This document shows, piece by piece, positions 1-59,777 of a stretch of 59,777 nucleotides of DNA. The DNA comes from a virus. The stretch spans positions 1 through 59,777 of IMG/VR virus record IMGVR_UViG_3300044825_002288. The stretch is one strand, 5' to 3'. Each line of letters starts with the position of its first letter. The first letter of the stretch is position 1. The position numbers and the translations under genes were made by a program. The notes beneath the pieces were generated by a model. It was not told where the DNA came from. It searched no databases and worked only from the letters and a program-made list of their open reading frames with translations.

Positions 1-59
1 GGGAGTCATCCACGGCGGTCATTAAGGCTACTGTCAAAACTGCTTTAACGATGGAGTAA
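1..59 (+). CDS. C-terminal fragment of the 85-residue conserved phage protein
   Basis: The first 59 bases encode the last 18 codons of the protein whose complete copy lies at 56289-56546; the sequence is identical and ends at the same TAA. The fragment is cut by the window edge and is not a decayed gene. It places position 1 directly upstream of the adhesin locus in a circular map. Confidence 0.8.
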   Translation, partial: ESSTAVIKATVKTALTME

Positions 60-62
60 ATT

Positions 63-1217
63 ATGGCAGCAACTATTAACGGCGACGGCTTAATATCCCT
101 AGACGGTACACCATCAACTCAGGGTCGGGTGCGACTTGCTGAGGATACCGATAACGGGACTAACTATGTTGAGCTACAGGCGGCAACTAGTATTGCTTCT
201 AGTTTGACCTTTACTTTGCCTAACGCAGACGGCACTAGCGGTCAGGTATTACAGACCAATGGTTCAGGAGTACTGAGTTTTGCTACAGCCGCGTCAGCTA
301 ATTTCCAAGAGTTCACATCCTCTGGTACATGGACTAAGCCTTCAGGCGCAACATTTGTAATGGTTGAGGCGTGGGGTGCTGGTGGCGGTGGTGGTAGTGG
401 ATATAGGGGCGATGGATTAGGAATCCGTGGCGGCGGCGGTGGTGGTGGCGGCGGTGCTTTTACTCAAAGATTTTTTAAAGCCTCTGATCTTGGTGCAACA
501 GAAACCGTAACTATTGGCGCTGGTGGAACTGGAGGAACCGCTTCCACAGTAAATTGCAGCGCTGGTTGTGCGGCAACCGCTGGCGGTGATACAACTTTTG
601 GAAGTTGGCTAACTGCATTTGGTGGTGGTCGGGGTGGTGCTGGAACGGCTGGGGCAAATTCAGGAGGAGGTGGTGGTGGTGTATTAACTGCTGCTACAAC
701 TGCTAATGGAGGAGATCCATTTTCAAGACAGTGCGGCGCTACCACGGTTCAAGGCCAGTTTGGAGGCGGACTTGGACAAGCCGCAAGTCTTGGCAGACCG
801 TCAGGATGGGGTGGTGGTGGAGGCGGCTCTAATGGCGGTACTGGATCACCACAAGTGGGAGGATCTTCGTTTCAAGGCGGTCCCGGAGGCGGTTCAGGAG
901 GCGGACTAAACGCAGCTGGATGTGCTAGAGCAGGTTCTTCTGGAGGTGGAATTACTACAGCAGGCGGTAACGGAGCCGCTGGTGGTGCAGCCGCAGTTAA
1001 TGCTACTGCTAATGGGTCTAATGGAACCGCAGGTTCTGGAAGACAAGGTGCAGGAGGCGGTGGTTCTGGAGGGAATACTTCCGGCACAGGCGGAACCGGA
1101 GGAGCTGGGGGTCAGCCCGCAGGCGGTGGCGGTGGAGGTGGTGGCTCAACTAATGGTTCTAACTCCGGTGCTGGTGGAGCAGGTGGTGCAGGTCTTGTCC
1201 GTGTTTATACATGGTAG
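63..1217 (+). CDS. Glycine-rich tail-tip adhesin, position 1, W-type head (384 aa)
   Basis: Probable receptor-binding protein. Residues 1-80 form a short anchor with the fibre motif EDTDNGTNYV and a TSGQVLQTNGSG segment. From about residue 84 a conserved entry sequence ([17 protein letters not shown]) leads into a long glycine-rich head with runs of up to eight or nine Gly, ending in the invariant tail [10 protein letters not shown]. This architecture matches phage glycine-rich adhesin domains; the structural precedent is the polyglycine-II adhesin gp38 of Salmonella phage S16. The ATG is 3 nt after the preceding stop. The downstream partner overlaps the end region. The head is called W-type for GTWTKPSG and FKASDLGAT, shared with 58086-59252. 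Binding target unknown. Confidence 0.75.
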   Translation: MAATINGDGLISLDGTPSTQGRVRLAEDTDNGTNYVELQAATSIASSLTFTLPNADGTSGQVLQTNGSGVLSFATAASANFQEFTSSGTWTKPSGATFVMVEAWGAGGGGGSGYRGDGLGIRGGGGGGGGGAFTQRFFKASDLGATETVTIGAGGTGGTASTVNCSAGCAATAGGDTTFGSWLTAFGGGRGGAGTAGANSGGGGGGVLTAATTANGGDPFSRQCGATTVQGQFGGGLGQAASLGRPSGWGGGGGGSNGGTGSPQVGGSSFQGGPGGGSGGGLNAAGCARAGSSGGGITTAGGNGAAGGAAAVNATANGSNGTAGSGRQGAGGGGSGGNTSGTGGTGGAGGQPAGGGGGGGGSTNGSNSGAGGAGGAGLVRVYTW

Positions 1218-1225
1218 GTGATCAA

Positions 1226-1465
1226 ATGAGATACGCAATTATTGAAAACGGAGTTGTGATCAATGTGGCCGAGGCAGACGCAGAGTTTGCCGCGCAACAG
1301 GGTTGGGTTGAGTGTCCAACCGCAGGCCCGGGATGGACTTATGCAAATGGAGTGTTTACAGCACCTCCTCCCGCTCCGATCCCAGAGCCTCCTCATGCCC
1401 CTACAAAAGAGCAGCTCATGGCTGAACTTGCAGCACTAACAGCAAAAATCCAAGCATTGGAGTAA
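1226..1465 (+). CDS. Small adhesin partner, short form (79 aa)
   Basis: Starts MRYAIIENGVV, closely matching the start of the 119-residue partner at 2768, so I choose the ATG at 1226 (preceded by an AGGTGA-like site) rather than the ATG at 1211 inside the adhesin gene. This N-terminus is typical of small tail-fibre assembly or tip proteins. The middle is Pro-rich (APPPAPIPEPP) and the C-terminus is a short predicted coiled coil (KEQLMAELAALTAKIQALE). It lacks the tail-assembly-chaperone-like domain of the 119-residue form. It always follows the W-type head in this window (also at 59261-59500), suggesting a cognate chaperone or tip subunit. Confidence 0.65.
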   Translation: MRYAIIENGVVINVAEADAEFAAQQGWVECPTAGPGWTYANGVFTAPPPAPIPEPPHAPTKEQLMAELAALTAKIQALE

Positions 1466-1468
1466 GAC

Positions 1469-2758
1469 ATGGCATCAATTATTAACGCATCATCGACCGG
1501 CTCTGGCGGTTTAATTAGCACTGCTGATGCCTCTGGTCAGTTAGAGCTTCAGGCAAACGGATCGACCAAACTAACGGTGACATCCTCTGGGGTGAGCATT
1601 ACCGGAGGTATTGCATCGCCTTTGGCCGTAACCGGAAACTCAACGGCTGGTGCTGAGATTCGATTACCGGAAGACACCGACAACGGCTCTAATTATGTGG
1701 CCCTGAAAGCAGCAGATAGCATTGCCAGTAATGTGACCTTCACCCTGCCAGCAGCCGATGGTACGAGCGGCCAAGTGCTTCAGACCAACGGATCTGGAAC
1801 GCTGAGTTTTGCTACACCGGCAGGTGCTAACTTCCAAGAATTTACATCCTCTGGAACTTATACCAAGCCCTCTGGCGCAACCTTTGTGCTTGTAGAGGCA
1901 TGGGCAGCGGGTGGTGGCGGAGGATCTGGTCAAAGATTTGCCGGAGGCGGAAATAGGTTTGGTGGAGCTGGTGGTGGTGGCGGTGCGTATGTTCAACGAT
2001 TATTTAAGGCTGCTTGTGTAGGAGCAACCGTAACCGTAACGATTGGCGCAGGCGGAGCAGGGGGAGCAGCACAAACAGTAAATACTTCAAATGGAAACAA
2101 TGGAGCTGCTGGCGGTAATACAACTTTTGGTTCGTTATTAACTGCTTATGGTGCTGGCGGTGGGGTTGGAGGACAAAGTAATACAGCCGGAGGTCACGGC
2201 GGCGGCGCATTAGCTAGTGGTGCTTGTGGTGGTCATCCGCGAGGAACCACAGGAGCTGTGTCATGTTCATGTGTTTGGGGTAATTTTGGTGGTGCGCTTG
2301 GTACTACTGTCACTGGTGGATCTAAAGCCGGTGGTTGGGGTGGTGCAAGCGGCGGGAGAACCACTATCGGTAATCCAGGAAATGCTGGTGGAGCAGCATT
2401 CCAAGGCGGCCCAGGCGGTGGTGCTGGTGGCGGCATAACTTGTGCTGATGCAAAACGAGCTGGCGGTGCTGGTGGAGGTAGTGTTTCAACATTATGTTGT
2501 GCGCGAGGCGGTGGTGGAGCCGGTGGTGCTGCTGCAGTTAATTCCTCAGGAAACGGTTCTGCTGGAACCGCAGGCTCTGGACGCCAAGGCGGTGGTGGCG
2601 GTGGATCAGGTGGTGAAGACAGCGGCACAGGCGGAACGGGTGGCGCAGGTGGTCAACCAGCCGGAGGTGGTGGTGGTGGTGGCGCTTCGACTAACGGATC
2701 AAATTCAGGCGCAGGTGGTGCCGGAGGCGCTGGTTTAGTTCGCGTCTACACTTGGTAA
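1469..2758 (+). CDS. Glycine-rich tail-tip adhesin, position 2, Y-type head (429 aa)
   Basis: Same architecture as the protein at 63-1217 but with a different, longer anchor: MASIINASSTGSGGL, a LELQANG segment, an extra ITGGIASPLAVTG stretch, then EDTDNGSNYV and TSGQVLQTNGSG. The head begins with [17 protein letters not shown] and contains FKAACVGAT, the Y-type hallmarks shared with 56550-57713. The Gly-rich core differs strongly from that relative, yet the final 48 nt and the partner gene downstream are almost identical. Probable host-recognition protein; receptor unknown. Confidence 0.75.
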   Translation: MASIINASSTGSGGLISTADASGQLELQANGSTKLTVTSSGVSITGGIASPLAVTGNSTAGAEIRLPEDTDNGSNYVALKAADSIASNVTFTLPAADGTSGQVLQTNGSGTLSFATPAGANFQEFTSSGTYTKPSGATFVLVEAWAAGGGGGSGQRFAGGGNRFGGAGGGGGAYVQRLFKAACVGATVTVTIGAGGAGGAAQTVNTSNGNNGAAGGNTTFGSLLTAYGAGGGVGGQSNTAGGHGGGALASGACGGHPRGTTGAVSCSCVWGNFGGALGTTVTGGSKAGGWGGASGGRTTIGNPGNAGGAAFQGGPGGGAGGGITCADAKRAGGAGGGSVSTLCCARGGGGAGGAAAVNSSGNGSAGTAGSGRQGGGGGGSGGEDSGTGGTGGAGGQPAGGGGGGGASTNGSNSGAGGAGGAGLVRVYTW

Positions 2759-2767
2759 GGAATAGAC

Positions 2768-3127
2768 ATGAGATACGCAATCATTAAAGACGGCGTTGTT
2801 GAAAACATCGTAGAAGCCACGCCTGAAGTAGCAAGTGAAAACGGATGGGTTCAATGCCCTGAACACGATGATGAGCAAAACGCCATCAGTCCAAGATTCT
2901 TGTTTTCCAACAATAAATTTACCAAGCCTCCGAGAAACATAGAGGCTGAGTGGAACGCTGTCCGCGCCCAACGAAATGCTTTGTTAAGCCAGTCGGACTG
3001 GACGCAGGCATCTGATGTTCCGCAGGCAACAAAGGATAAATGGGCGGTGTATCGGCAAGCTTTGAGAAATATTCCTCAAACATTTTCCGACCCAAAAGAT
3101 GTGGTTTGGCCTACTAAACCGGAGTAA
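2768..3127 (+). CDS. Adhesin partner with tail-assembly-chaperone-like domain (119 aa)
   Basis: N-terminus MRYAIIKDGVVENIVEA resembles the short partner at 1226. Residues 65-119 (RAQRNALLSQSDWTQ, WAVYRQALRNIPQ, VVWPTKPE) match the pattern of the phage tail assembly chaperone family (Phage_tail_APC). The gene is 9 nt after the Y-type adhesin and 3 nt before the 87-residue gene. The second copy at 57723-58082 differs at only a few residues. Likely role: folding or trimerisation of the adjacent adhesin, or a component of the fibre tip; both are inferences. Confidence 0.7.
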   Translation: MRYAIIKDGVVENIVEATPEVASENGWVQCPEHDDEQNAISPRFLFSNNKFTKPPRNIEAEWNAVRAQRNALLSQSDWTQASDVPQATKDKWAVYRQALRNIPQTFSDPKDVVWPTKPE

Positions 3128-3130
3128 ATC

Positions 3131-3394
3131 ATGGCTAAAGACTTTCCTGATCTGACAGGCGATGGCAAGGTAACCCATGCTGATGTTCTGAAGGGCCGTG
3201 GCGTATTTAAAAAGGGCGGAAGCACGGACAAGTGGATTCAAAAGGCAATTTCTAAACCGGGTGCCTTAAAGAAACAATTGGGCGTTCCTGCCGACAAAAA
3301 GATTCCTGCCAAGACCCTAAATAAGGCTGCTAAGGCTCCGGGTAAGTTAGGTCAGCGGGCTAGACTCGCCAAGACACTGCGGGGTTTCGATTGA
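3131..3394 (+). CDS. Conserved basic phage protein (87 aa)
   Basis: Small Lys-rich protein starting MAKDFPDLTGDGKVTHADVL, an EF-hand or dockerin-like Asp pattern (DLTGDGKVTHADVL), followed by FKKGGSTDKW and a basic C-terminus with IPAKTLNKAAK and RARLAKTLRGFD. Similar short proteins recur in aquatic phage genomes, in my recollection; function unknown. A second version lies at 59504-59767 with about 20 base differences, mostly silent. It also contains one instance of the KKGG motif found across this virion's proteins. Confidence 0.7.
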   Translation: MAKDFPDLTGDGKVTHADVLKGRGVFKKGGSTDKWIQKAISKPGALKKQLGVPADKKIPAKTLNKAAKAPGKLGQRARLAKTLRGFD

Positions 3395-3661
3395 ATGGAA
3401 TGGCAAACCGTCATAAACATCGGCGGGGGTTCCCTCTTAGCCGCTCTAGGATGGTTTGCTAGAGAAATTTGGGACGCCGTGAAAGAGCTCCGCAGAGATA
3501 TGCACCGTATTGAACGAGATCTTCCCGACATCTATGCCAAAAAAGATGAGATGAGGGAGACCTTTAAAGAGGTGCGTCAGGATATGAATCAGGGATTCAA
3601 CAAAATTGAGTCCATGATTGGACAACTATTTGACAGGCTAAACAACAAAGCAGATCGGTAA
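3395..3661 (+). CDS. Small membrane-anchored coiled-coil protein (88 aa)
   Basis: Residues about 5-25 (INIGGGSLLAALGWFAREI) form an N-terminal hydrophobic segment, followed by a charged amphipathic helix (ELRRDMHRIERD) and further heptad-like sequence to the end. The start codon touches the stop of the preceding gene (TGAATG). The position just upstream of other membrane proteins, a holin and an endolysin suggests a lysis role, perhaps as an antiholin or spanin-like protein, but no diagnostic lipobox or motif is present. Confidence 0.65.
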   Translation: MEWQTVINIGGGSLLAALGWFAREIWDAVKELRRDMHRIERDLPDIYAKKDEMRETFKEVRQDMNQGFNKIESMIGQLFDRLNNKADR

Positions 3662-3738
3662 TGGGGTTGTGGACTTTTGCCTTTTTGGGTGTGTTGGTAA
3701 TTGTGCTTAGTTTTTCACTTGGAATATGGAGTTGGTGA
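3661..3738 (+). CDS. Possible 25-residue single-TM microprotein
   Basis: A tiny frame beginning MGLWTFAFLGVLVIVLSF and ending GIWSW. It is almost entirely one hydrophobic helix. Its ATG overlaps the previous stop (TAATG) and its TGA overlaps the next start (TGATG), exactly the junction style of the neighbouring genes, which argues for real translation. It sits inside the lysis cluster. It could be a small holin-like or regulator peptide; it may also be chance. Confidence 0.45.
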   Translation: MGLWTFAFLGVLVIVLSFSLGIWSW

Positions 3739-4148
3739 TGTTTGCAGACAAAGAGCTAAAACGAGCCAAAATCGACATAAAGGCAGAGTTAAATAGGCTT
3801 AATGCCCAACAAACCGCCAAAGAAGTCGCAGGAAAGTCAATTGGCCGATTCGGCCTTTTTTACATCACTCTGATCGTAATTATTGGCGTGGCGGCTAGCC
3901 TTCAGTTGGAAGAGGGCAAGATGGCCGCCGTAATGGGACTGCTGGGCGCCTCGCTTACAGCCCTGATCTCCATGATGAACGGGATTGCCGGGGCTACCCC
4001 AAAGCAAGAAAAACCCGAGTTTGAGATTATGAAGCAACTTATTGAGCATCTTGATCGGATGGCTGATCGTGACCCAATGACAGTCGATGTGGACGGAGAA
4101 AAGGTTACCGTCCGTAAAGGCGATAACGAAATTAAAACGGTGAGGTAA
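3738..4148 (+). CDS. Two-TM membrane protein of the lysis cluster (136 aa)
   Basis: An N-terminal charged helix (ADKELKRAKIDIKAELNRL) is followed by two hydrophobic segments: FGLFYITLIVIIGVAASL around residues 38-56 and MAAVMGLLGASLTALISMM around 62-81. The C-terminal 45 residues are charged. The ATG at 3738 overlaps the preceding TGA. A topology with two helices and a cytoplasmic tail is compatible with a holin or antiholin. No named family recognised. Confidence 0.6.
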   Translation: MFADKELKRAKIDIKAELNRLNAQQTAKEVAGKSIGRFGLFYITLIVIIGVAASLQLEEGKMAAVMGLLGASLTALISMMNGIAGATPKQEKPEFEIMKQLIEHLDRMADRDPMTVDVDGEKVTVRKGDNEIKTVR

Positions 4149-4150
4149 TT

Positions 4151-4561
4151 ATGTTTCCTATAGCCGCTTTACTTGATGTTGGAATGAAAGTGCTGGATAA
4201 GGTCATGCCTGATCCGGCGGCCAAGGCTCAAGCCCAACTTGCCTTGATGGAAGCTAGTCAGAAGGGTGAGCTTGCCCAGCTTCAGGCTGATGTGAATGAG
4301 CAGATGGAGTTAACCAAGCGCCTTGAGGCCGACATGGCCTCGGATTCTTGGTTATCCAAAAACATCCGGCCAATGACATTGATATTCATTTTGATTGCTT
4401 ATTCTTTTTTTGCCGTTGGATCGGGAGTTAATTTTCAGGTCAATGAAAAATATGTGGAATTACTTGGTCAGTGGGGAATGTTGATTATGTCCTTTTATTT
4501 CGGCGGCAGAACGCTTGAAAAAATTATGGACATGAAATCAAAAAAGGAAGACAAGAAGTGA
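4151..4561 (+). CDS. Holin of the GTA/3-TM family (136 aa)
   Basis: The signature region DSWLSKNIRPMTLIFILIAY, followed by a second membrane segment (WGMLIMSFYFGGRTLEKIM), matches the GTA_holin_3TM family pattern. The N-terminal half is an amphipathic helix rich in Ala, Gln and Glu. Holins of this family permeabilise the inner membrane so that the endolysin reaches the cell wall. The gene overlaps the M15 peptidase start by 4 nt, the classic holin-endolysin arrangement. Confidence 0.8.
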   Translation: MFPIAALLDVGMKVLDKVMPDPAAKAQAQLALMEASQKGELAQLQADVNEQMELTKRLEADMASDSWLSKNIRPMTLIFILIAYSFFAVGSGVNFQVNEKYVELLGQWGMLIMSFYFGGRTLEKIMDMKSKKEDKK

Positions 4562-5007
4562 ACCCGCAAGACAAACTATCGGAGAACTTTACTTATGAAG
4601 AACTTACTCGCTCTGAAACAGCGGATCGTAACGGCTGGGAAAACATTCCTAACGAAGCTGAAATCGAAAATCTCCGCCGTCTGGCCGCGCTCCTCCAAGA
4701 AGTCAAAAAAGCGGTAGGCGGCAAACCGGTCATGATCAATTCGGCTTTTCGGTCGAAAAAGGTCAATGACGCCGTAGGATCGAAAGACACCTCCCAGCAT
4801 CGTTTGGGATGTGCTGCAGACATCCGAGTGCCGGGTATGCGGCCTCGGGAGGTGGTGGAGGCTTGTATCGCCGCCAAAGTGCCTTTTGACCAAATCATCC
4901 TTGAGTTTGATTCTTGGACTCATATCTCGGTGCCGAATACACCTCAGATGCAGGCTAGAGGCCAAAAGCTGATAATTGACAAACAGGGAACTAGGGCATT
5001 TTCATGA
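4558..5007 (+). CDS. Endolysin, M15-family peptidase (149 aa)
   Basis: Predicted zinc peptidase that cuts peptidoglycan cross-links. Zinc and catalytic motifs are visible: SQHRLGCAAD at residues 79-88 (H81 and D88) and WTH at 120-122 (H122), the pattern of the Peptidase_M15_3 group. The N-terminus (LSENFTYEELTRSETA) is the usual start of these endolysins. There is no signal peptide, so release needs the holin just upstream. The GTG start overlaps the holin stop (GTGA). Confidence 0.88.
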   Translation: MNPQDKLSENFTYEELTRSETADRNGWENIPNEAEIENLRRLAALLQEVKKAVGGKPVMINSAFRSKKVNDAVGSKDTSQHRLGCAADIRVPGMRPREVVEACIAAKVPFDQIILEFDSWTHISVPNTPQMQARGQKLIIDKQGTRAFS

Positions 5008-5411
5008 GCACGGCCGTTAAATCTGACCCCTCTAAATGGAAGCGCATCGTCGCCTCGGTGAAAGCCTCGGGCAAGGGCGGCGCTCCGGGTCAGTGGTCGG
5101 CTCGGAAGGCTCAATTGGCCACCCAAAAGTACAAGTCCTCAGGCGGGGGCTATAAAGGGCCAAAAAAGGCCGATAACAGCCTCTCCCAGTGGAGCAAGCA
5201 GGAATGGGGTACCAAGTCTGGCAAGCCTTCTACGGTAGGTCCAAAAGCCACTGGGGAGCGGTATCTGCCCAAAAAGGCCATCCAAGGGCTTTCTTCGGCT
5301 GAATACGCCGCCACAACCCGCGCCAAGCGGGAAGGGAAGGCTGCCGGCAAACAGTTTGTCTCTCAGCCAAAAAGTATTGCTGAGAAAACCGCCAAATATA
5401 GGAGTTGGTGA
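5004..5411 (+). CDS. Conserved basic phage protein (135 aa)
   Basis: Lys/Ser/Gly-rich protein (WSARKAQLATQKYKSSGGGYKG, split motifs SLSQWSKQEWGTKSGK, GERYLPKKAIQGL, GKQFVSQPK). The pattern matches a domain of unknown function that I recall as DUF5872 from phage and bacterial genomes; the name is not verified. The high charge suggests a nucleic-acid-associated or virion-internal protein. It overlaps the endolysin by 4 nt and the adaptor by 1 nt. Confidence 0.65.
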   Translation: MSTAVKSDPSKWKRIVASVKASGKGGAPGQWSARKAQLATQKYKSSGGGYKGPKKADNSLSQWSKQEWGTKSGKPSTVGPKATGERYLPKKAIQGLSSAEYAATTRAKREGKAAGKQFVSQPKSIAEKTAKYRSW

Positions 5412-6046
5412 TGACAGTCGCCGCCGTAATGACCTATGACTCTTTGGTCAATGATATTTCGACTTATCTTGAGCGGACGGACACGGCCACCCTAGAGAAG
5501 ATCCCGACTTTCATTATGTTGGCCGAACAGGTTATTGCCTCAGAAATCAAGTTTTTGGGCAATCTGACGGTCCAGCAAAGCACTATGGTAGCCACCCAGC
5601 CAGTCATCGATAAGCCCGCTAGATGGCACAAAACGGTATCTATGAATGTGGTTGTGGCGGGGGAGCGCAGACCGGTCCTGCTTCGGAAGTACGAGTACCT
5701 CCGGGAGTACTGGCCGGACCCCACCCAAGTCGATGTGCCTAAGTTTTACTGCGACTATGACTATACCCATTGGTTAGTCGCCCCAAGCCCTGCCTCAAAT
5801 TACACCTTTGAGGTGCTTTATTACGAGCGGATTCAGCCCTTGGATTCCTCAAACCAAACCAATTGGTTCACGATTTATGCCCCCCAGGCCCTGCTCTACG
5901 GATCACTCCTGCAGGCCATGCCGTTTTTGAAAAACGACGATCGTATGCCTATGTGGCAGGCTCAGTACGACAAGATTATCAATACCTTGAAGACTGAAGA
6001 CCTCACCCGAATCGCCGATCGTCAATCAACAGTATTGGATTCATGA
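5411..6046 (+). CDS. Head-tail adaptor protein (211 aa)
   Basis: Resembles the SU10-type/podoviral adaptor family that sits under the portal. Typical features: an N-terminal helical region (VNDISTYLERTDTATLEKIPTFIM in pieces: EKIPTFIMLAEQVI), a central beta region with RPVLLRKYEYLREYWPD, and YAPQALLYGSLLQAMPFLKND near the C-terminus. The ATG at 5411 is chosen over upstream TTG/GTG codons because it overlaps the stop of the previous gene and is preceded by AGGAG at a spacing of 6. Confidence 0.7.
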   Translation: MTVAAVMTYDSLVNDISTYLERTDTATLEKIPTFIMLAEQVIASEIKFLGNLTVQQSTMVATQPVIDKPARWHKTVSMNVVVAGERRPVLLRKYEYLREYWPDPTQVDVPKFYCDYDYTHWLVAPSPASNYTFEVLYYERIQPLDSSNQTNWFTIYAPQALLYGSLLQAMPFLKNDDRMPMWQAQYDKIINTLKTEDLTRIADRQSTVLDS

Positions 6047-25684: not shown

Positions 25685-25890
25685 AATATGTATTGATCGC
25701 TTTGCTTGTCGCCATCCTCGGGGTGTTAATTGAGAGTCGCTTAAATGACCAGTACCAGCTCGGATACCAGGAAGGGGTTAAGACTGCGTTAAAGACTAAC
25801 CCGCCCTCTGAGGAGCTTGAGCTGGCCTGCGTAGGGCTGTGGATTGGGGAGCAGAATCGAAAATATTGGCACAAGGAAGCAAGCCGATGA
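25681..25890 (+). CDS. Membrane-anchored small protein (69 aa)
   Basis: N-terminal hydrophobic helix (MKYVLIALLVAILGVLI), then a polar region with one Cys. It could be a membrane anchor or an uncleaved signal. Overlaps both neighbours by 4 nt. Function unknown. Confidence 0.55.
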   Translation: MKYVLIALLVAILGVLIESRLNDQYQLGYQEGVKTALKTNPPSEELELACVGLWIGEQNRKYWHKEASR

Positions 25891-27407
25891 AATATTTGTC
25901 CGTGTGCTCAGGTATTGAGGCAGCCACCTCGGCTTGGCACCACATGGGATGGGAGCCGGTGGCGTTCTCTGAAATTGAGCCATTCCCATCAGCCGTGCTT
26001 AAGCATCACTACCCGAATGTGCCGAACCTGGGCGATATGACTAAATTTAAGGAGTGGAATCTTGGATCAATTGACCTTCTTGTCGGAGGAACCCCCTGTC
26101 AGTCCTTCTCAGTCGCCGGACTCAGAAAAGGATTGGACGATCCGCGTGGCAACCTCATGCTCACCTTTGGTGCCATTGCTCGCCACTTCGCTCCCCGTTG
26201 GTTGGTTTGGGAGAATGTCCCTGGGGTCTTGTCGTCAAACGGAGGACGGGACTTTGGTACCTTCCTCGGAATGTTGGGAGAACTCGGGTATGGGTTCGCC
26301 TACAGAGTTCTTGACGCTCAGTACTTCGGAGTGGCCCAAAGACGCCGCCGTGTGTTCGTTGTCGGATGTCTTGGAAACTGGCGAGCTGCCGCAGCGGTTC
26401 TTTTTGAGCTCGCAAGCATGTCAGGGAATCCTCCGCCGAGCAGAGAAAAGGGGCAAGGAGTTACCCCCGGCTCTCCACCAGGCCCTCAGTACGGTGGCTC
26501 AAACGCAGAGTGTGCCGATACCGTCACAAGCAAATGGGCAAAAGGATCAGGAGGACCCTCAGGAAATGAGGGAGGATTATTCGTAGCCCAACCGGTCGGT
26601 CTGCCTGAGGTCATGTCCACCTTGTTGTCATCGACTGCCGGGGTATCCCGCCCCGGTAATGCGGCTACAGAGCATGAGACCTATATTCCGATGGCTTACC
26701 GGAAATCTAAGCGAGCTCATACCCAAGACGATGATGAGACATGGGTAGATGATGGGATTGCCAATACCGTCAACCTATTCGATCAAGGCGATACGCGCAC
26801 TACCCATGCCGTAGTTCAACCGATTCCGTTAGATTCCATGAACATCTTCCGAAGCCCGGAGGCAGACGCTTCAACAGGTTGTGGATTGGGGGAGGAGGGA
26901 GAGGCGATGTTTACCCTTACCAAAACAAACCATCACGCTGTAGCTCAACCCTTGAACATTTATGGTGGTAACAAGCGATCTGACAGGCCGGAGGGCGGGT
27001 TTTATGTCCGGATGAATGAGGACACAAGCAAAACCTTGGACGCCACTTCAGGGTTAAATCCGACTGCCAATCAGGGCGGGACTGCGGTGATGCAGCCGGT
27101 TGTCTTTCAGGAAACTGCCGATCCATTGACCGCTTGTTTTGCCAAACATCACGGCGCAAGCGGCGGGAAAGACAGCATTCCGCACAATCATGTTATGCAG
27201 TCGATGGCTGTGCGCCGCCTCACCCCGCGGGAATGTGAGCGGCTTCAAGGCTTTTCCGATGACCACACCCTGATCCCGTGGCGGGGCAAGGATGCCTCCC
27301 AATGCCCGGATGGCCCTCGATACAAGGCTTTAGGCAACTCTATGGCGGTTCCGGTCATGGCTTGGATCGGGGAGCGGATAAGGATGGTCTGTGAACTACA
27401 GAAATAA
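25887..27407 (+). CDS. C5 cytosine DNA methyltransferase (506 aa)
   Basis: Modifies cytosine in DNA, probably protecting the phage genome from host restriction. Conserved motifs: SVCSGIEAATSAW (motif I, residues 5-17), GGTPCQSFSVAG with catalytic Cys71 (motif IV), VWENVPG (motif VI), VAQRRRRVFVVG (motif VIII), and ALGNSMAVP near residue 480 (motif X). The region from about 170 to 450, including target recognition, is long. The ATG at 25887 overlaps the previous stop. Recognition sequence cannot be read from the protein. No restriction endonuclease is nearby. Confidence 0.88.
   Translation: MKYLSVCSGIEAATSAWHHMGWEPVAFSEIEPFPSAVLKHHYPNVPNLGDMTKFKEWNLGSIDLLVGGTPCQSFSVAGLRKGLDDPRGNLMLTFGAIARHFAPRWLVWENVPGVLSSNGGRDFGTFLGMLGELGYGFAYRVLDAQYFGVAQRRRRVFVVGCLGNWRAAAAVLFELASMSGNPPPSREKGQGVTPGSPPGPQYGGSNAECADTVTSKWAKGSGGPSGNEGGLFVAQPVGLPEVMSTLLSSTAGVSRPGNAATEHETYIPMAYRKSKRAHTQDDDETWVDDGIANTVNLFDQGDTRTTHAVVQPIPLDSMNIFRSPEADASTGCGLGEEGEAMFTLTKTNHHAVAQPLNIYGGNKRSDRPEGGFYVRMNEDTSKTLDATSGLNPTANQGGTAVMQPVVFQETADPLTACFAKHHGASGGKDSIPHNHVMQSMAVRRLTPRECERLQGFSDDHTLIPWRGKDASQCPDGPRYKALGNSMAVPVMAWIGERIRMVCELQK
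26062..26586 (+). CDS. Candidate overlapping gene inside the methyltransferase (174 aa)
   Basis: A +1-shifted frame within the methyltransferase gene. It begins TTG (MDQLTFLSEEPPVSPSQS) with AAGGAG at 26049-26054, 7 nt upstream. The product is Ser/Pro-rich, with SLSDVLETGELPQRFFLSSQ then QGILRRAEKRGKELPPAL, a pattern I recall (unverified) in unnamed phage proteins next to this type of methyltransferase. It has no domain I can name. It could be real overlapping coding or an incidental frame favoured by codon bias. Confidence 0.5.
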   Translation: MDQLTFLSEEPPVSPSQSPDSEKDWTIRVATSCSPLVPLLATSLPVGWFGRMSLGSCRQTEDGTLVPSSECWENSGMGSPTEFLTLSTSEWPKDAAVCSLSDVLETGELPQRFFLSSQACQGILRRAEKRGKELPPALHQALSTVAQTQSVPIPSQANGQKDQEDPQEMREDYS

Positions 27408-47493: not shown

Positions 47494-47834
47494 TGCCTAG
47501 ATTCCTAGACACCCGCGCCCTAACATCTGTAGCCATCGGTGTATGTGATCGATGCAAGATGAAACGCGCCTATGTCAATCTAGGCCCCGATCCTAACTTC
47601 CCAGGATTGCGCGTATGCGATCAAGGATGCAAGGATCAATTTGACCCCTACAGGCTGCCGGCTCGGAAGACTGAGCGAATTAACCTTCGCTTTCCCCGCC
47701 CAGATGTAAGTGTCGCCAATGTCCAACCGGCCTTGCAGACCGGGGGTTATGGCCAGTTCCTGATATCGACACAGGACAACCAAAATATCCCGGAAAACGA
47801 TGGCAACCTCGATGTAATTAGCCCGAGCCCATAA
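47493..47834 (+). CDS. Zinc-ribbon-like virion protein (113 aa)
   Basis: Two Cys pairs, CDRC at residues 18-21 and the CDQGC near residues 42-46, form a likely zinc ribbon. The rest is polar (FDPYRLPARKTERINLRFPR). The pattern occurs in aquatic podoviruses near neck genes. The next gene starts in the TAATG overlap. Structural or assembly role probable. Confidence 0.6.
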   Translation: MPRFLDTRALTSVAIGVCDRCKMKRAYVNLGPDPNFPGLRVCDQGCKDQFDPYRLPARKTERINLRFPRPDVSVANVQPALQTGGYGQFLISTQDNQNIPENDGNLDVISPSP

Positions 47835-50233
47835 TGCCTTCAGCACAAGTCACCATTACCCAATTACCTGCCGCCGGTCCAATTCAAGGGACTGAGGCGG
47901 TACCTATCGTCCAAAACGGTCAGACCGTACAGACCACAACGGGGGCTATTGCCGCCTCCCCGAGTCAGACTCAGACCTTTATTACGGTCAACCAAGAGCC
48001 GAGCCTGATCAATAGTCGGGCCTTGTCTGTCGGATCGGGGTTAAGCCTCACCGATGGCGGAGCTCAATCGACTATGCAGATTGGCCTCGCTGGAGCGGTA
48101 GCGAGCCTTTTCTCCTCTACTTTGGGGCTGCAGTCCAAAACTAACGCCTCAACAATGGTCGGGCGCACGATTACAGGCTCCACAGGGGTCTCGGTTTCTG
48201 ACGGCAATGGCATTGCAGGAAACCCAACGATCGGCCTTACAGGGGCCGTAGGATCGCTTGCAGGGCTTGCCGGAACCGGTGTCCTAGGGATTGTTGGGGG
48301 AAGCAGTGTCACCGCCCTAGAAATTACGGGAACGACTAATGAGATTGATGTAGCCAACGGAACCGGACCCGGAAACCCGACTATTGGGATTTCGGACAAC
48401 CCGCGGATACCAGGCACCGGGGCGATGCTGATCCCTAACGGGACAACCGCTCAACAGATCTATGGCCCGGATGGGCAGATTCGATACAACACTCAGACTC
48501 AGTATTTTGAGGGCTTGATTGGTGGTGCTTGGACTAACGCTTTAGGCTCATCCGGCATCAGTGGATTTTCCGGCTTTAGCGGATTTTCCGGAATTTCAGG
48601 ATTTTCCGGATTCTCAGGCATTTCCGGTTTTTCTGGCTTTTCTGGACTTAGCGGTATATCGAGTACCTTTTACCCATACCGCACTAATACGGGAAGCACC
48701 TCAGGGGACCCCGGATCAGGCAAGCTACTTTGGAATAACGGAACCCAAACAAGCGCAACACAAATCAATGTCAATCACATAACGGACGATGGCGTTGATA
48801 TTGATGTCTTTTTGGCCCTGCTTGCCGAAACTGAAAACTTCATCATTCAGGATCAAGCTAATAGCGGAAACTTCCAAAAGTGGCTGATCAACGGGGCGCC
48901 ATCGAATGCAGGTAATTACTGGACGATTCCTTGTACGCTTGTTGACTCCGGTGGAACTGGAACCTCAGGGTTTGCAGATAACCTTGAAGTCATCCTTGCG
49001 GTCGTAAACGGTATTAGCGGATTCTCTGGCACTTCCGGATTTAGCGGATTCTCGGGCTTTAGCGGAATTTCAGGCTTTAGCGGATTCTCAGGTTTTAGCG
49101 GAGAGAGCGGCTATTCAGGTTTTTCAGGAATTAGCGGATTTTCCGGTGATAGCGGAATCAGTGGATTTTCTGGAATTTCCGGTTTTTCGGGCGAATCAGG
49201 ATTCAGCGGATACTCAGGCAGTGGCGTTTCGGGTTTTAGCGGCGAGTCTGGTTTTTCGGGATTTTCTGGTGAATCAGGTTTTTCGGGAGCTAGCGGATTT
49301 TCCGGCATCAGTGGATTTTCTGGCGATAGCGGAATTAGCGGATTTTCGGGATTTAGCGGAGAGTCTGGATTCTCAGGATTTTCGGGTTATTCGGGGCTTG
49401 ATGGCATAGCTCAAAGCGGCACTTCGGGATTCTCAGGATTTAGTGGCCAATCAGGATTTTCTGGATTTTCAGGAACTAGTGGATTTTCGGGCCAATCGGG
49501 AACTTCAGGATTTTCAGGCGCAGTTGGATCGGCATCAACTTTTTATCCATATCTAGCGAAAACAACATCACAAAGCGGTGATCCAGGTGTTGGATTTTTG
49601 TTGTGGAACAACGCAACTCAATCAAGCGCCACGCAAATCAATGTAAGCCATGAAGATGACGATGGAGTTGATGTTGATATTTTCTTGGCTTTAATTAAGC
49701 AAACTCAACGATTTACAATTCAAAGCAGAACATCGAGTGCTAATTATCAAGTTTGGGAAGTCAACGGAACCCCAAATAATGTAAATCCTGGCTTATCAAA
49801 TAGTTACTGGGAATTCCCGGTCAGTCTTGTAACCTCAACTTACAGCTTTGCAAATAACGATCCAATTATTTTTGCAATTACAGCTGGTCTTAGTGGCTTT
49901 TCCGGAACTTCAGGATTTTCAGGGTTTTCCGGTTTCAGCGGAATCTCAGGGTTTAGTGGAATTAGCGGATTTAGCGGAACTTCAGGTTTTTCGGGAACTT
50001 CGGGGTTTTCAGGTTTTTCCGGCATTAGCGGCTTCTCGGGCTTCAGTGGCACATCGGGATTTTCGGGTGCGCCGCCGACGACAATTTCTGTCGCTACGAC
50101 TTCTACGACGCCGGTCTACCCCGTCCTAGTGGCCGGCACGACCGGAAGCCAAAGTGCCTTGACGGACTCTGACTTGAGCTATAACGCAACAACCAATGCC
50201 TTCTTATCAGGTGTGGTGGGCGGAACCTTCTGA
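47834..50233 (+). CDS. Collagen-like tail fibre with Gly-X-Ser repeats (799 aa)
   Basis: Elongated virion fibre. Residues 1-238: beta-rich fibre base. Then three Gly-X-Ser/Thr tracts (residues about 240-277, 393-564 and 685-745) alternating with two copies of a globular domain of about 115 residues (TFYPYRTNTGSTSGDPGSGK... and TFYPYLAKTTSQSGDPGVGF...). In the triplets X is mostly Phe, Ile or Tyr, sometimes Glu or Asp, and the third position is nearly always Ser or Thr. The end is SGVVGGTF. Ser-rich triplets are potential glycosylation sites, with glycosyltransferases directly downstream. Confidence 0.75.
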   Translation: MPSAQVTITQLPAAGPIQGTEAVPIVQNGQTVQTTTGAIAASPSQTQTFITVNQEPSLINSRALSVGSGLSLTDGGAQSTMQIGLAGAVASLFSSTLGLQSKTNASTMVGRTITGSTGVSVSDGNGIAGNPTIGLTGAVGSLAGLAGTGVLGIVGGSSVTALEITGTTNEIDVANGTGPGNPTIGISDNPRIPGTGAMLIPNGTTAQQIYGPDGQIRYNTQTQYFEGLIGGAWTNALGSSGISGFSGFSGFSGISGFSGFSGISGFSGFSGLSGISSTFYPYRTNTGSTSGDPGSGKLLWNNGTQTSATQINVNHITDDGVDIDVFLALLAETENFIIQDQANSGNFQKWLINGAPSNAGNYWTIPCTLVDSGGTGTSGFADNLEVILAVVNGISGFSGTSGFSGFSGFSGISGFSGFSGFSGESGYSGFSGISGFSGDSGISGFSGISGFSGESGFSGYSGSGVSGFSGESGFSGFSGESGFSGASGFSGISGFSGDSGISGFSGFSGESGFSGFSGYSGLDGIAQSGTSGFSGFSGQSGFSGFSGTSGFSGQSGTSGFSGAVGSASTFYPYLAKTTSQSGDPGVGFLLWNNATQSSATQINVSHEDDDGVDVDIFLALIKQTQRFTIQSRTSSANYQVWEVNGTPNNVNPGLSNSYWEFPVSLVTSTYSFANNDPIIFAITAGLSGFSGTSGFSGFSGFSGISGFSGISGFSGTSGFSGTSGFSGFSGISGFSGFSGTSGFSGAPPTTISVATTSTTPVYPVLVAGTTGSQSALTDSDLSYNATTNAFLSGVVGGTF
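48551..48663 (+). repeat. Collagen-like coding repeat 1
   Basis: Nine-base units coding Gly-Phe-Ser/Gly-Ile-Ser (mainly GGATTTTCC, GGCTTTAGC forms). Synonymous codons vary between units. Confidence 0.85.
49010..49525 (+). repeat. Collagen-like coding repeat 2
   Basis: The longest Gly-X-Ser/Thr tract, with X including Phe, Ile, Tyr, Glu, Asp, Ala and Thr. It is interrupted once near 49388-49425 (YSGLDGIAQSGTSG). Confidence 0.85.
49886..50068 (+). repeat. Collagen-like coding repeat 3
   Basis: Third tract of Gly-X-Ser/Thr triplets, downstream of the second globular domain and just before the C-terminal cap. Confidence 0.85.
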
Positions 50234-51681
50234 TGAAGTATTCAATCGTCATCCCAACCTACAACCACTGTGATGACCTGCTGCGGCCGTGTCTTGAGTC
50301 CGTCTTTAAGCATTCCGTTATGTCCGAGGTGGAGATAATCGTATCGGCTAATGGATGCACGGATAACACCCGCTGGTATTTAGAGTCTCTGAAAAATCAG
50401 TTTGATCGGGTTGGGTTTGGGGATCACTTCAAGGTCTTATGGAGCGATGTCCCCTTGGGGTATCCAGTCGCCAACAATGTGGCCATCCGCCATGCGACAG
50501 CTGACCGGATTGTCCTTCTGAATAACGACTGCATCCTCTTGGACCAAGAGCGCGGAACTTGGCTAAAGATGCTGAATTCCGCCTTTGAAGACGAGAAGTG
50601 CGGGATCTCAGCCGTCTTAAAGGCCCATTCAGAGATTACCGGCCGGGACTTTGCGGTGTTTTTCTGCGTGATGATCGACCGTAAGGTCTTTGAGACCGTT
50701 GGCTTACTGAATCCGGAGTTTGGGGCAGGTGGGTGCGAGGACATTGAGTTTTGCTTAGAGACTGAAAACGCCGGATTTAAGGTGATTCAGTGTGAAAATC
50801 AGGGCTGGAACGGCCAAACCAACACCGGAGCCTTCCCGATTTATCACAAGGGCGAGGGTACGGTTCACGATTCGGTCTTGGTAAAGGATTGGAAGTCCGC
50901 TTTTTTCCAAAACCAGCTTAAATTGGCCGAAAAACATAACCCTGAATGGGCCAAAAACGCCCACAGACAGGCTAAAGACCATCAAATCAGGTCATCCCTT
51001 GCCTGGATGTGCGAAAACGGCCCTGAAGCCAAGGAATTGTTCGATGAGGTGATCGTCGGGAATGTCTATGGAGCCTCTGAAGAGTCCATGCGTGGCCGAG
51101 AGGTCATCGATATCGGGGCTAATATGGGCACCTTTTCAATCTTGGCCGCTAGCCTTGGGGCTAGGAAGGTCATAGCGATTGAGCCGGTGACCCCGACCTT
51201 TGATGTCCTGATTAAAAATGTATGGAAGTCGGGTTCAGATGTCATCAAGCCGCAGAAGGCCGTGGTTTCTGACCGTGCCGGGGAGTATGTGCGGATAGGG
51301 CTACAGCAAAAAACGGGCCATAACAGCCTTTATGGCGTCCAAGAAGACTTTGAAGAGGTCTATTCCGTCACCCTAAATAACCTCTTAGACATGGTCGATG
51401 GCAGCAATGTCTTCCTTAAGATGGACTGCGAGGGTGCTGAGTACGACATCCTGATGAACGCCTCAGAAGAGGACATGGAGCGGATCACCACGATCGCCCT
51501 AGAGGTTCACGGAGATCTGCACCCCAAATATCGGGGCATCGAGGTAATAGAGAAGAAATTAGAGTCCTTCGGGTTTACCCTTAAAGACCGCAAACATATT
51601 GGTGCTTGGGATCTAGGCTCTCAGGGAGAGATGATCAACTACCGAGACTTGGGCAGGACTAACGAGATATGGACAAGATAG
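50233..51681 (+). CDS. GT2 glycosyltransferase fused to FkbM methyltransferase (482 aa)
   Basis: Residues 1-240: GT2-type glycosyltransferase (SIVIPTYNHCDDLLRPCLES, IIVSANGCTDNTRWY, VLLNNDCILLD, GGCEDIEFCLE). Residues about 285-475: FkbM-family SAM methyltransferase (VIDIGANMGTFSILAASLGA, VIAIEP, VTLNNLLD, FLKMDCEGAEYDIL). Together the enzyme could add a sugar and methylate it. The start overlaps the collagen-like fibre stop by 1 nt, so production is tied to that fibre. Acceptor inferred, not shown. Confidence 0.8.
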   Translation: MKYSIVIPTYNHCDDLLRPCLESVFKHSVMSEVEIIVSANGCTDNTRWYLESLKNQFDRVGFGDHFKVLWSDVPLGYPVANNVAIRHATADRIVLLNNDCILLDQERGTWLKMLNSAFEDEKCGISAVLKAHSEITGRDFAVFFCVMIDRKVFETVGLLNPEFGAGGCEDIEFCLETENAGFKVIQCENQGWNGQTNTGAFPIYHKGEGTVHDSVLVKDWKSAFFQNQLKLAEKHNPEWAKNAHRQAKDHQIRSSLAWMCENGPEAKELFDEVIVGNVYGASEESMRGREVIDIGANMGTFSILAASLGARKVIAIEPVTPTFDVLIKNVWKSGSDVIKPQKAVVSDRAGEYVRIGLQQKTGHNSLYGVQEDFEEVYSVTLNNLLDMVDGSNVFLKMDCEGAEYDILMNASEEDMERITTIALEVHGDLHPKYRGIEVIEKKLESFGFTLKDRKHIGAWDLGSQGEMINYRDLGRTNEIWTR

Positions 51682-54285: not shown

Positions 54286-55205
54286 GCGGAATTATGCTTT
54301 CATTTGTTGGAGCATCTGGAAAACTACCTCTAGATGTTGAGGCTCTAATTGTGGCTGGTGGCGGTGGCGGTGGGTGGGCAGGCGGTGGCGGTGGTGGAGG
54401 TGGATACAGAACAAGTAGTGCTACTTTATTAGCAAATACTAACTACACGGTTACAGTTGGAGCTGGCGGGGGAGGTGGATTTTGCGTTGGATTTGGCCCT
54501 AGAGGAGCTAGTGGATCAAATTCAGTTTTTAATACGACAACTTCAGCAGGCGGTGGAGGTGGTGGCGGTAGAGGGTATCCAGGTTACCCTTGTTGCATTC
54601 GCGCTGGAGCAAATGGTGGCTCCGGCGGAGGAGCAGCAACAAGTAATTGTTCGTGGTCTGGCGGAACAGGAAACACTCCAACGCAAAGTCCATCGCAAGG
54701 AAATAATGGTGGCAATAATGCAACAACTTGTAGAACTGGAGCCGGCGGAGGCGGTGGGGCAGGCGGTGCTGGATCTAATGGAGGAACATTTTCCGGAGGA
54801 AATGGTGGATCTGGATCTACATCAAATATATCTGGTTCTTGCGTAACTTATGCCGGTGGCGGTGGCGGCGGTGTTATTGCTTTTCCAACAGTGTCAACAA
54901 CAACATCTGGAACAGGAGGTTCCGGCGGAGGAGGCAATGGAGCGGCAACAAGCGGTTCTGGTAATGGCTCTAATGGCACAGCAAATCGTGGGGGTGGCGC
55001 AGGCGGTGGAATTCAATGGAACAATTCAGGGTCTCCAGTTAATAGCAATGGAGGAAACGGGGGATCAGGAGTTGTAATTCTTAAATATCCAAGCGTTTAT
55101 TCGATTTCAAATCCTGGTGGAGGTCTTACTTTTTCAACTACAACATCAGGTGCAAATAAAATTAGTACATTTACTGCCGGCACTGGCAATGTTTCGTGGA
55201 GTTAG
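54282..55205 (+). CDS. Third glycine-rich adhesin (307 aa)
   Basis: GTG start at 54282 overlaps the preceding stop. The protein begins SGIMLSFVGASGKLPLDVEA, then enters Gly runs of up to eight with TVTVGAGGGGG, as in glycine-rich adhesin domains. It has no EFTSSGT entry and lacks the VRVYTW end; it ends with TFTAGTGNVSWS. It is thus a separate lineage of adhesin. The downstream partner is a 128-residue protein distinct from those of the other two types. Confidence 0.7.
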   Translation: MSGIMLSFVGASGKLPLDVEALIVAGGGGGGWAGGGGGGGGYRTSSATLLANTNYTVTVGAGGGGGFCVGFGPRGASGSNSVFNTTTSAGGGGGGGRGYPGYPCCIRAGANGGSGGGAATSNCSWSGGTGNTPTQSPSQGNNGGNNATTCRTGAGGGGGAGGAGSNGGTFSGGNGGSGSTSNISGSCVTYAGGGGGGVIAFPTVSTTTSGTGGSGGGGNGAATSGSGNGSNGTANRGGGAGGGIQWNNSGSPVNSNGGNGGSGVVILKYPSVYSISNPGGGLTFSTTTSGANKISTFTAGTGNVSWS

Positions 55206-55207
55206 CA

Positions 55208-55594
55208 ATGGCTCATTACGCATTTCTTGATAAAAATAATATTGTAGTTGAAGTTATTGTCGGAAAAGAAGAGAACGAAGACGGAATTGATTGGGAAAAG
55301 CACTATGAAAATTTTCGTGGTTTAGCGTGCAAAAGAACTTCATATAACACCCAAAAAGGAATCCATAAATTAGGAGGAATTCCTTTTAGAAAAAATTATG
55401 CTTGTATTGGATATAAATATGATGCTGAAAAAGATGCTTTTATCCCCCCAAAGCCTTTTAATTCGTGGGTTTTAGATGAAACAATTGGAGGTTGGATTCC
55501 ACCTGTTGCAATTCCAAGCGATCATGAACAAGGAAATCCACCCAAAATTTATATTTGGGATGAACCAACAACTTCTTGGAAAATAGTGGAGTAA
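55208..55594 (+). CDS. Partner of the third adhesin, cyanophage-like (128 aa)
   Basis: ATG 55208 (MAHYAFLDKNNIVVEVIVGK). Contains KRTSYNTQKGIHKLGGIPFR, NYACIGYKYDAEKDAFIPPK and LDETIGGWIPP, a sequence pattern recurring in cyanophage and other aquatic phage virion proteins. It is just behind the adhesin and so is likely its partner or an accessory of the tail tip. Confidence 0.65.
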   Translation: MAHYAFLDKNNIVVEVIVGKEENEDGIDWEKHYENFRGLACKRTSYNTQKGIHKLGGIPFRKNYACIGYKYDAEKDAFIPPKPFNSWVLDETIGGWIPPVAIPSDHEQGNPPKIYIWDEPTTSWKIVE

Positions 55595-55596
55595 TT

Positions 55597-56292
55597 ATGG
55601 GCAAGAAAAAAGTATGTAAGGCCGCCGAACAGGTAAAAGAAGTTGTGCAAAACACACAACTAAATGTTGCCTTTCACTTTCCTTGCCCAATCTACCTGAT
55701 TGAGCGTCCAGACTTCTTAGAAGCCGTCAATAAGGTTTCAGAAGAATCTTTGGAGAAACAGCGCAAAGAACACAAGATTGACGAAATCTATCCTGTTTTA
55801 ATGAGCGAAAACTTTTACGCTGATGAGCGGGTTCAACCTTTTGCCCAATTCGTAGCCGCTACCGCATGGAATATCCTCAACGAGCAGGGATATGCCATGC
55901 AGGACAAGGTGACCTCCTACATGGAGATGTGGACTCAGGAACACCATAAACAGTCCTCTATGGAGCAGCATACACACGGGTACGGATCTCAGATCGTAGG
56001 CTTTTATTTCCTTGAGGTTCCTGAGAACTCCTCTCGGGTGGTCTTTTATGACCCACGGGCAGGAAAGGTTCAGATCGATCTACCTGAGACCGATGCCTCT
56101 CAGGCTACCGTGGCAAGCAAGATGATCAACTTTGAGCCAAAACCGGGGCTGATGATTTTTACTAACGCTTGGCTAGCCCACGCATTTACCCGCCACGCCG
56201 CCGATAAACCGATCAAGTTTGTGCATTTCAATCTGTCGGTTCAGATGGCCCAGCCGGTTCAGGCGCCTATGCCCGCAGCGGAGATCGTATGA
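55597..56292 (+). CDS. 2OG-Fe(II) oxygenase-like protein (231 aa)
   Basis: Pattern of the phage 2OG-Fe(II) oxygenase group: EQHTHGYGSQIVGFYFLEVP (His125, His127), VVFYDPRAG, PGLMIFTNAWLAHAF (His195) and KPIKFVHFNL. These enzymes hydroxylate proteins, nucleic acids or small molecules. The usual Arg that binds 2-oxoglutarate is not clear here (Lys204/Lys207 in its place). ATG 55597 preferred over the upstream TTG. Possible acceptors: fibre proteins. Confidence 0.65.
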   Translation: MGKKKVCKAAEQVKEVVQNTQLNVAFHFPCPIYLIERPDFLEAVNKVSEESLEKQRKEHKIDEIYPVLMSENFYADERVQPFAQFVAATAWNILNEQGYAMQDKVTSYMEMWTQEHHKQSSMEQHTHGYGSQIVGFYFLEVPENSSRVVFYDPRAGKVQIDLPETDASQATVASKMINFEPKPGLMIFTNAWLAHAFTRHAADKPIKFVHFNLSVQMAQPVQAPMPAAEIV

Positions 56293-56546
56293 ACAAGTAC
56301 TCAATCCGCTTTAACAAAACCCGTGGTCAGCCCGGTCGAGGCACGATGGATCATGTTTGGCGTGTGTTTGAAAACGGCAAAGAATACTTATTTAAGAACT
56401 TAGATATTTCAGTTCCCATCAAAAGTGAAAAAGATGAGAACGGTGTGGATTACAACATTTGTTGTACGGGGTACTTAGAGATTGACCGGGAGTCATCCAC
56501 GGCGGTCATTAAGGCTACTGTCAAAACTGCTTTAACGATGGAGTAA
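56289..56546 (+). CDS. Conserved aquatic-phage protein (85 aa)
   Basis: Basic N-terminus (YSIRFNKTRGQPGRGTMDHV), then WRVFENGKEYLFKNLDI and YNICCTGYLEIDRESST. This compact protein is familiar from other aquatic phages, mostly unassigned. It overlaps the oxygenase-like gene by 4 nt. Its C-terminal 18 codons reappear at window positions 1-59. Confidence 0.65.
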   Translation: MNKYSIRFNKTRGQPGRGTMDHVWRVFENGKEYLFKNLDISVPIKSEKDENGVDYNICCTGYLEIDRESSTAVIKATVKTALTME

Positions 56547-56549
56547 ATT

Positions 56550-57722: not shown

Positions 57723-58082
57723 ATGAGATACGCAATCATTAAAGACGGCGTTGTTGAAAACATCGTAGAAGCCACGCCTGAAGTAGCAAGTGAAAACGGA
57801 TGGGTTGAATGCCCTGAATATGATGATGAGCAAAACGCCATCGGTTCAAGATTCTTGTTTTCCAACAATAAATTTACTAAGCCTCCGAGAAACATAGAGG
57901 CTGAGTGGAACGCTGTCCGCGCCCAACGAAATGCTTTGTTAAGCCAGTCGGATTGGACGCAGGCATCTGATGTTCCGCAGGCAACAAAGGATAAATGGGC
58001 TGTGTATCGACAAGCCCTAAGAGATATTCCTCAAACATTTTCAGATCCAAAAGATGTGGTCTGGCCTACTAAACCGGAGTAA
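57723..58082 (+). CDS. Adhesin partner with tail-assembly-chaperone-like domain, second version (119 aa)
   Basis: Nearly identical to 2768-3127, with a few substitutions (for example VECPEYDDEQNAIGSRF). It keeps SDWTQASDVPQATKDKWAVY and VVWPTKPE of the tail-assembly-chaperone-like pattern. Located 9 nt after the Y-type adhesin, the same distance as in version 1. It moved together with its Y-type head. Confidence 0.7.
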   Translation: MRYAIIKDGVVENIVEATPEVASENGWVECPEYDDEQNAIGSRFLFSNNKFTKPPRNIEAEWNAVRAQRNALLSQSDWTQASDVPQATKDKWAVYRQALRDIPQTFSDPKDVVWPTKPE

Positions 58083-58085
58083 GAC

Positions 58086-59500: not shown

Positions 59501-59503
59501 GAC

Positions 59504-59767: not shown

Positions 59768-59777
59768 ATGGAATGGC

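Follow-up and report, generated by a model that had tools for sequence, protein, structure and literature searches.

Two probable versions of one glycine-rich adhesin locus, with exchanged modules, at the ends of an aquatic phage contig

The window analysed here is the complete IMG/VR record IMGVR_UViG_3300044825_002288, a contig of 59,777 bases that carries one version of an adhesin locus at each end. Each version contains two adhesins, composed of an N-terminal anchor and a glycine-rich (Gly-rich) head, and each adhesin gene is followed by a small partner gene. Version 1 (v1) runs W-head, 79-aa partner, Y-head, 119-aa partner, while version 2 (v2) runs Y-head, 119-aa partner, W-head, 79-aa partner, and an 87-aa gene closes each version. 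These are the gene orders given in a preliminary description of this DNA, and all ten genes were found. Directly upstream of v2 are a third Gly-rich head with its partner, followed by an oxygenase/85-aa gene pair. The features are as follows:

1-59, + strand: 3' part of the 85-aa gene, truncated where the contig begins; identical to 56488-56546
63-1217, + strand: v1 adhesin 1, anchor 1 with a W-type Gly-rich head, 384 aa; PF21722 above cut-off, AlphaFold2 model matches 7ypx and 9d93
1226-1465, + strand: v1 79-aa partner, putative short fibre chaperone; 97.5% aa identity to 59261-59500, N-terminal domain in common with the 119-aa partner
1469-2758, + strand: v1 adhesin 2, anchor 2 with a Y-type Gly-rich head, 429 aa; PF21722, phmmer match to 9d93 (E 9e-11)
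2768-3127, + strand: v1 119-aa partner with a tail assembly chaperone C-terminal domain (PF16778, E 1e-20)
3131-3394, + strand: 87-aa gene, v1 copy, closing the locus; single copy in 28 of 28 related loci
54291-55594, + strand: third Gly-rich head (54291-55205; PF21722, E 9e-18) and its partner, a 132-aa ORF from 55208
55597-56292, + strand: 2OG-Fe(II) oxygenase (PF13759); 98.7% aa identity to contig L134
56289-56546, + strand: conserved 85-aa gene, next upstream of the variable locus; IMG/VR stretches contain 315 relatives
56550-57713, + strand: v2 adhesin 1, anchor 1 with a Y-type head, 387 aa (sequence comparison, codon alignment)
57723-58082, + strand: v2 119-aa partner; 95.8% aa identity to 2768-3127
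58086-59252, + strand: v2 adhesin 2, anchor 2 with a W-type head, 388 aa (sequence comparison, codon alignment)
59261-59500, + strand: v2 79-aa partner; 97.5% aa identity to 1226-1465
59504-59767, + strand: 87-aa gene, v2 copy; 97.7% aa and 91.3% nt identity to the v1 copy; the contig ends 10 bases on
53-65, 1459-1471, 3121-3133, 55588-55599, 56540-56552, 58076-58088 and 59494-59506, + strand: module border GGAGTAA-N-ATG

The identical runs previously described at the two ends are exact to the base by direct sequence comparison: positions 1-88 equal 56488-56575 (exactly 88 bases), and 3378-3404 equal 59751-59777 (exactly 27 bases). The contig starts inside the 85-aa gene, which is complete at 56289-56546, and ends 10 bases into an 88-aa gene, which is complete at 3395-3661. 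The k-mer size of the assembler was considered as a source of the 88- and 27-base overlaps and rejected, as no single k fits both. Elsewhere in the window, a 522-aa C-5 cytosine methylase (25839-27407) has its conserved parts far apart, as if with a central insert. The host-recognition region also includes a 799-aa tail fibre rich in GFSG-type collagen-like repeats (47834-50233), followed by a glycosyltransferase/methyltransferase fusion (50233-51681).

Three heads, the two of v1 and the upstream one, match the Pfam family Gly_rich_2 (PF21722) above its cut-off, and the v2 heads align to the v1 and upstream heads over their whole length. An AlphaFold model of the v1 W-head has a moderate mean pLDDT of 63.7, with values of 73-92 over most of residues 81-190. 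Foldseek searches with this model give matches to the tail brush of Bxb1 (9d93) at E 3.5e-9 and to the fibre of cyanophage Pam3 (7ypx) at E 5.4e-5 and probability 1.00; the TM-scores for 7ypx are moderate, at 0.31-0.44. The heads are predicted to share the fold of the Gly-rich domain of Pam3 gp24, a protein with a TNF-like domain and a Gly-rich domain with variable tips (PMC9608196). This link comes from the fold search and the Pam3 paper; phmmer did not recover gp24 or gp25.

The 119-aa partner carries a Tfa-like C-terminal domain, which is the PF16778 match listed above. The 79-aa partner has no Pfam match and no such domain; only its N-terminal part is common to the 119-aa partner, and it ends in a short coiled-coil-like segment. 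The 79-aa protein may work like a chaperone, though it is not classed as one here. Both partners look like the Pam3 chaperone gp25, whose variable N-terminal domain grips the TNF-like and Gly-rich domains and whose conserved C-terminal domain trimerises (PMC9608196). In the marine (Alteromonas) phage V22, binding by the fibre requires a downstream chaperone (gp26/gp27; PMC7289586).

The borders between modules share a compact sequence. A cassette ends in GGAGTAA, the next ATG follows two or three bases on, and the Shine-Dalgarno sequence of the next gene therefore sits in the last codons and stop of the partner. The pattern GGAGTAA-N(1-6)-ATG has eight matches in the window, seven of them at borders of this locus, against a shuffle mean of 0.41. 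Among 5,144 distinct ORFs of related loci, the motif follows 26 of 68 79-type and 13 of 53 119-type partners; it follows 28 of 4569 unassigned ORFs, a set that includes spurious ones, and the assigned non-partner families are also nearly devoid of it.

Across the two versions, the 79-aa partners are 97.5% identical and the 119-aa partners 95.8% identical, despite their different positions. The two partner types resemble one another at only about 45-47% identity over 48-55 residues, in the first half of the proteins. Near-identity within a type at different positions, set against this low similarity between types, argues that the swap is not due to chance. A codon alignment of the four heads (two from v1 and two from v2) shows three zones: the anchor, the linker together with the C-terminus, and the centre. 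The anchor at position 1 is 78-90% identical between v1 and v2, whereas the anchor zones of same-type heads at different positions are 30-71% identical. The linker (columns 121-150, in the region of the motif FTSSGT(W/Y)TKPSGATFV(M/L)VEAW) is 88-89% identical within a head type and 69-77% identical across types at the same position. The head C-terminus is 80-100% identical within a type. The centre of the head is 43-62% identical in nearly all comparisons, with many length changes, and tracks neither type nor position.

Anchors thus track position, as had been proposed, while the linker, C-terminus, and partner track head type. This pattern places the cuts of the exchange between anchor and linker and again after the partner gene. 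Anchor order is also conserved in related loci: all 10 distinct loci examined that have different heads place anchor C before anchor D, and the order C, anchor 1, anchor 2 is found in both L056 and the window, with L134 deviating. The proposed exchange of modules behind position-specific anchors is supported by relatives, including a circular one, and by the assembly of a companion sample.

The two versions differ at 10 of 240 bases in the 79-aa gene, 16 of 360 in the 119-aa gene, and 23 of 264 in the 87-aa gene, and most of these differences are silent. Base differences amount to about 4-4.5% in the partners and 8.7% in the 87-aa gene. Divergence of 4-9%, mostly silent, indicates old alleles and no recent switch. 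The preliminary description regarded the locus as host-range switching captured in one contig; two module-exchanged versions are indeed present, but they are old alleles, no switching enzyme was found in the record, and effects on host range are likely rather than observed. The variation would be of long standing in the population and spread through recombination; the contig does not record a switch in progress.

The locus is not confined to one phage lineage. Contig L134, from the companion sample, has an unrelated backbone whose tail protein is 32% identical to that of the window over 148 aa, yet it carries the window's oxygenase at 98.7% and its 85-aa protein at 98.8% aa identity. Nearly all base changes between the window and L134 in this unit are silent, 52 of 57 in the oxygenase gene, and the 85-aa gene end and locus junction (the region of 1-59) has one mismatch to L134. 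In L134 the 85-aa gene is followed by an adhesin that joins anchor 1 to another head, and then by a 79-type partner and the 87-aa gene; on the upstream side, a Y-type head is paired with a 79-type partner. The near-identical block on another backbone suggests that unrelated phages exchange the locus and its cassettes, and the upstream pair suggests that pairing of head and partner is common but not strict. Head type and partner would usually travel together because the chaperone grips the head domains, as gp25 does in Pam3. The oxygenase and 85-aa unit recurs beside adhesins in many aquatic phages (55597-56546 in the window; 9309-10258 in L134; 2033-3009 and 7662-8581 in L185), and at a guess it modifies Gly-rich or collagen-like fibres.

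Single-contig relatives show where the locus normally lies. In each of L056, L058, L062, and L064, a single contig runs from genes of the 46-54 kb type through one adhesin locus to genes of the 3.3-5.9 kb type. The flanks of these four are common and the content of the locus differs, so that variable content lies between conserved flanks, as in a metaviromic island. In L058 (IMGVR_UViG_3300047557_002184), which comes from the companion sample, the locus is occupied by one 945-aa protein, a third type of content between the same flanks. Copy numbers per fetched locus are almost uniformly one: the 87-aa gene is single in 28 of 28, the 140-aa gene in 99 of 99, and the 85-aa gene in 82 of 83. The exception is L185, in which the oxygenase/85-aa pair occurs twice, 5.6 kb apart in one molecule.

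The window's portal protein is nearest to those of podovirus-like Caulobacter and Pelagibacter phages. By portal protein, its nearest relative in the phage collection is MW202545 (64% aa identity), a circular record of 57,457 bp whose structural genes stand in a comparable order, the two genomes being compared by map and order alone. An Sf6-type small terminase would fit a circular map and packaging by the headful mechanism. Of 10 long relatives, three (G006, G007, and G015) can be closed through exact overlaps of 63-127 bases. G014 (IMGVR_UViG_3300032216_000320; 61,611 bases) has both of its ends inside a major capsid-type gene, at 1-308 and 61250-61557; 62 bases are identical, and the sequence beyond them matches at about 87%. 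Duplication of such a gene is not sensible, and G014 therefore indicates that overruns joining two versions do occur in assemblies. G013 (IMGVR_UViG_3300023184_000103; 68272 bases) was considered as a further two-version case and left out of the count: its two oxygenase/85-aa/fibre loci lie about 55.8 kb apart amid two different structural gene sets, and it appears to combine two phages into a chimera through the adhesin locus that they have in common.

A second assembly (IMG 3300047557) contains window positions 24739-57137 at 99.975% identity and 544-5976 at 100%, so the backbone around the window's two versions is closely matched. Its contigs break inside the first head of v2 and inside the first head of v1. 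Because both outer parts of the window recur there, the window is no random chimera. The joins seen in both assemblies are core-to-v2 and v1-to-core only; exact-pattern scans of IMG/VR, from which the window's own or very near genome records are possibly omitted, returned no core-to-v1 or v2-to-core join. Taken together, the single-locus relatives, the copy counts, the closing relatives, and G014 indicate that the window most likely overran the genome length in a mixed population. The window most probably holds two population versions of one adhesin locus, from a circular-map phage of about 56.4 kb whose contig extends slightly past one genome length, with v1 and v2 likely in separate molecules. 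The earlier proposal that the two ends are versions of a single locus and that the contig closes at about 56.4 kb is supported by the relatives, the companion assembly, and the circular relative.

A true duplication, in which v2 is followed by v1 in one molecule (directly or after an unassembled stretch) and one phage carries four cassettes, would also yield only the core-to-v2 and v1-to-core joins found in both assemblies, and L185 demonstrates that oxygenase/85-aa units, there 79.5% identical, can be repeated in one molecule. However, the contig would have to be cut exactly at the junction of the units, where the 85-aa and 88-aa genes are both truncated, and no relative has two copies of the 87-aa or the 140-aa gene. 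G014 moreover displays the same signature at a capsid-type gene, where duplicating makes little sense. The need for an exact cut and the lack of a parallel for the 87-aa or 140-aa gene make duplication unlikely. It is more improbable still that assembly fused two different phages through common sequence into a chimeric contig, with v1 or v2 foreign to this backbone: the closely similar locus of the unrelated L134 and the appearance of G013 indicate how one could arise, but the second assembly again contains the outer parts, each with its own flank and at 100% identity, the gene order on both sides is that of the single-contig relatives, and only one capsid and terminase set is identified in the window.

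Two other readings have very little probability. The ends are homologous and in the same orientation, as in a natural linear genome with imperfect terminal repeats; here, however, the ends fall inside genes, the locus is internal in relatives, and the repeats have exchanged modules. In tailed phages, replication through concatemers keeps terminal repeats identical. Hypervariable head centres and a swapped order resemble the outcome of programmed switching within one lineage by a diversity-generating retroelement or a site-specific invertase, a reading that we consider scarcely credible. The record has no match to the reverse transcriptase family PF00078, for which controls were positive, and none to the serine recombinase family PF00239; all modules lie on the + strand, and the differences in the partner and 87-aa genes are mostly synonymous, the mark of long separation. 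With neither enzyme found in the record, recombination between co-infecting phages is the favoured route to the two population versions.

Under the proposed mechanism, each locus would consist of two cassettes, each a Gly-rich adhesin head with a downstream chaperone, on two different N-terminal anchors. The anchor would stay with its position and may set the docking place of the fibre, while linker, head, and chaperone would be transferred together, from one anchor to another and from phage to phage, through homologous or illegitimate recombination. The joints probably fall in the conserved linker, in the conserved C-terminus of the head with the start of the partner, and at the stop/Shine-Dalgarno/start border GGAGTAA-N-ATG. 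The hypervariable head centre would contact the receptor, and the versions may consequently bind different host surfaces. Tentatively, aquatic phages of unrelated backbones may share one pool of head-plus-chaperone cassettes on ordered, position-coded anchors, with the border motif keeping new combinations translated.

The closest known system is Pam3 gp24/gp25 (PMC9608196; PDB 7ypx, 7yfw), in which the distal domain is likewise Gly-rich and combines conserved GGGGxGG stems with variable tips, and the fibre has its own chaperone made of an N-terminal fibre-binding domain and a C-terminal Tfa-like domain. The loci described here depart from Pam3 in having two or three adhesin/partner pairs whose N-terminal anchors differ; the portal of this phage is closest to those of podovirus-like phages, and the 79-aa partner lacks the Tfa-like helical domain of gp25. 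The gp38 adhesins of T-even phages (S16, T2; PDB 6F45) are receptor-binding heads that are also rich in Gly, with hypervariable segments set among conserved Gly stretches, and they are known for modular exchange, as cited in two papers (PMC7289586, PMC9608196). In contrast to gp38, head and anchor form one chain here, each with its own partner, and the phage is not T4-like; 6F45 is absent among the Foldseek hits listed for the v1 W-head model. The best sequence and fold match of the Gly-rich head is the Bxb1 tail tip brush protein gp33 (PDB 9d93), a mycobacteriophage tail protein, compared here at the level of the protein.

At the level of the locus, the window's two versions, likely on separate molecules, resemble metaviromic islands and host recognition clusters, in which otherwise near-identical phages vary across a whole host-recognition locus (PMC3909814, PMC7029224). 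Among the genes that Mizuno and colleagues assign to islands are those for fibre assembly, tail fibres, gp38-type adhesins, and Fe(II)-oxygenases. Hypervariable host-recognition islands are already established, and this locus is a well-resolved variant of them; a literature search for named module exchange in metagenomic phage adhesins found nothing closer. Such islands are known mainly through under-recruitment or island comparison, whereas the two arrangements here are readable base by base with their module borders. What this locus adds is the anatomy of the cassettes: anchors are coded by position, heads and chaperones form units, the borders have a sequence in common, and different backbones share the parts.

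For contigs with homologous but divergent ends, the first reading should be an overrun circular map and not a duplication. Receptor-binding variation in environmental phages is usually visible only as assembly gaps or poor read recruitment; with both arrangements readable in full, the rules of cassette exchange become testable in read data, including which parts move together, where the joints lie, and how often cassettes are shared among unrelated phages. The locus is a snapshot of aquatic phages apparently mixing and matching the parts with which they recognise their hosts.
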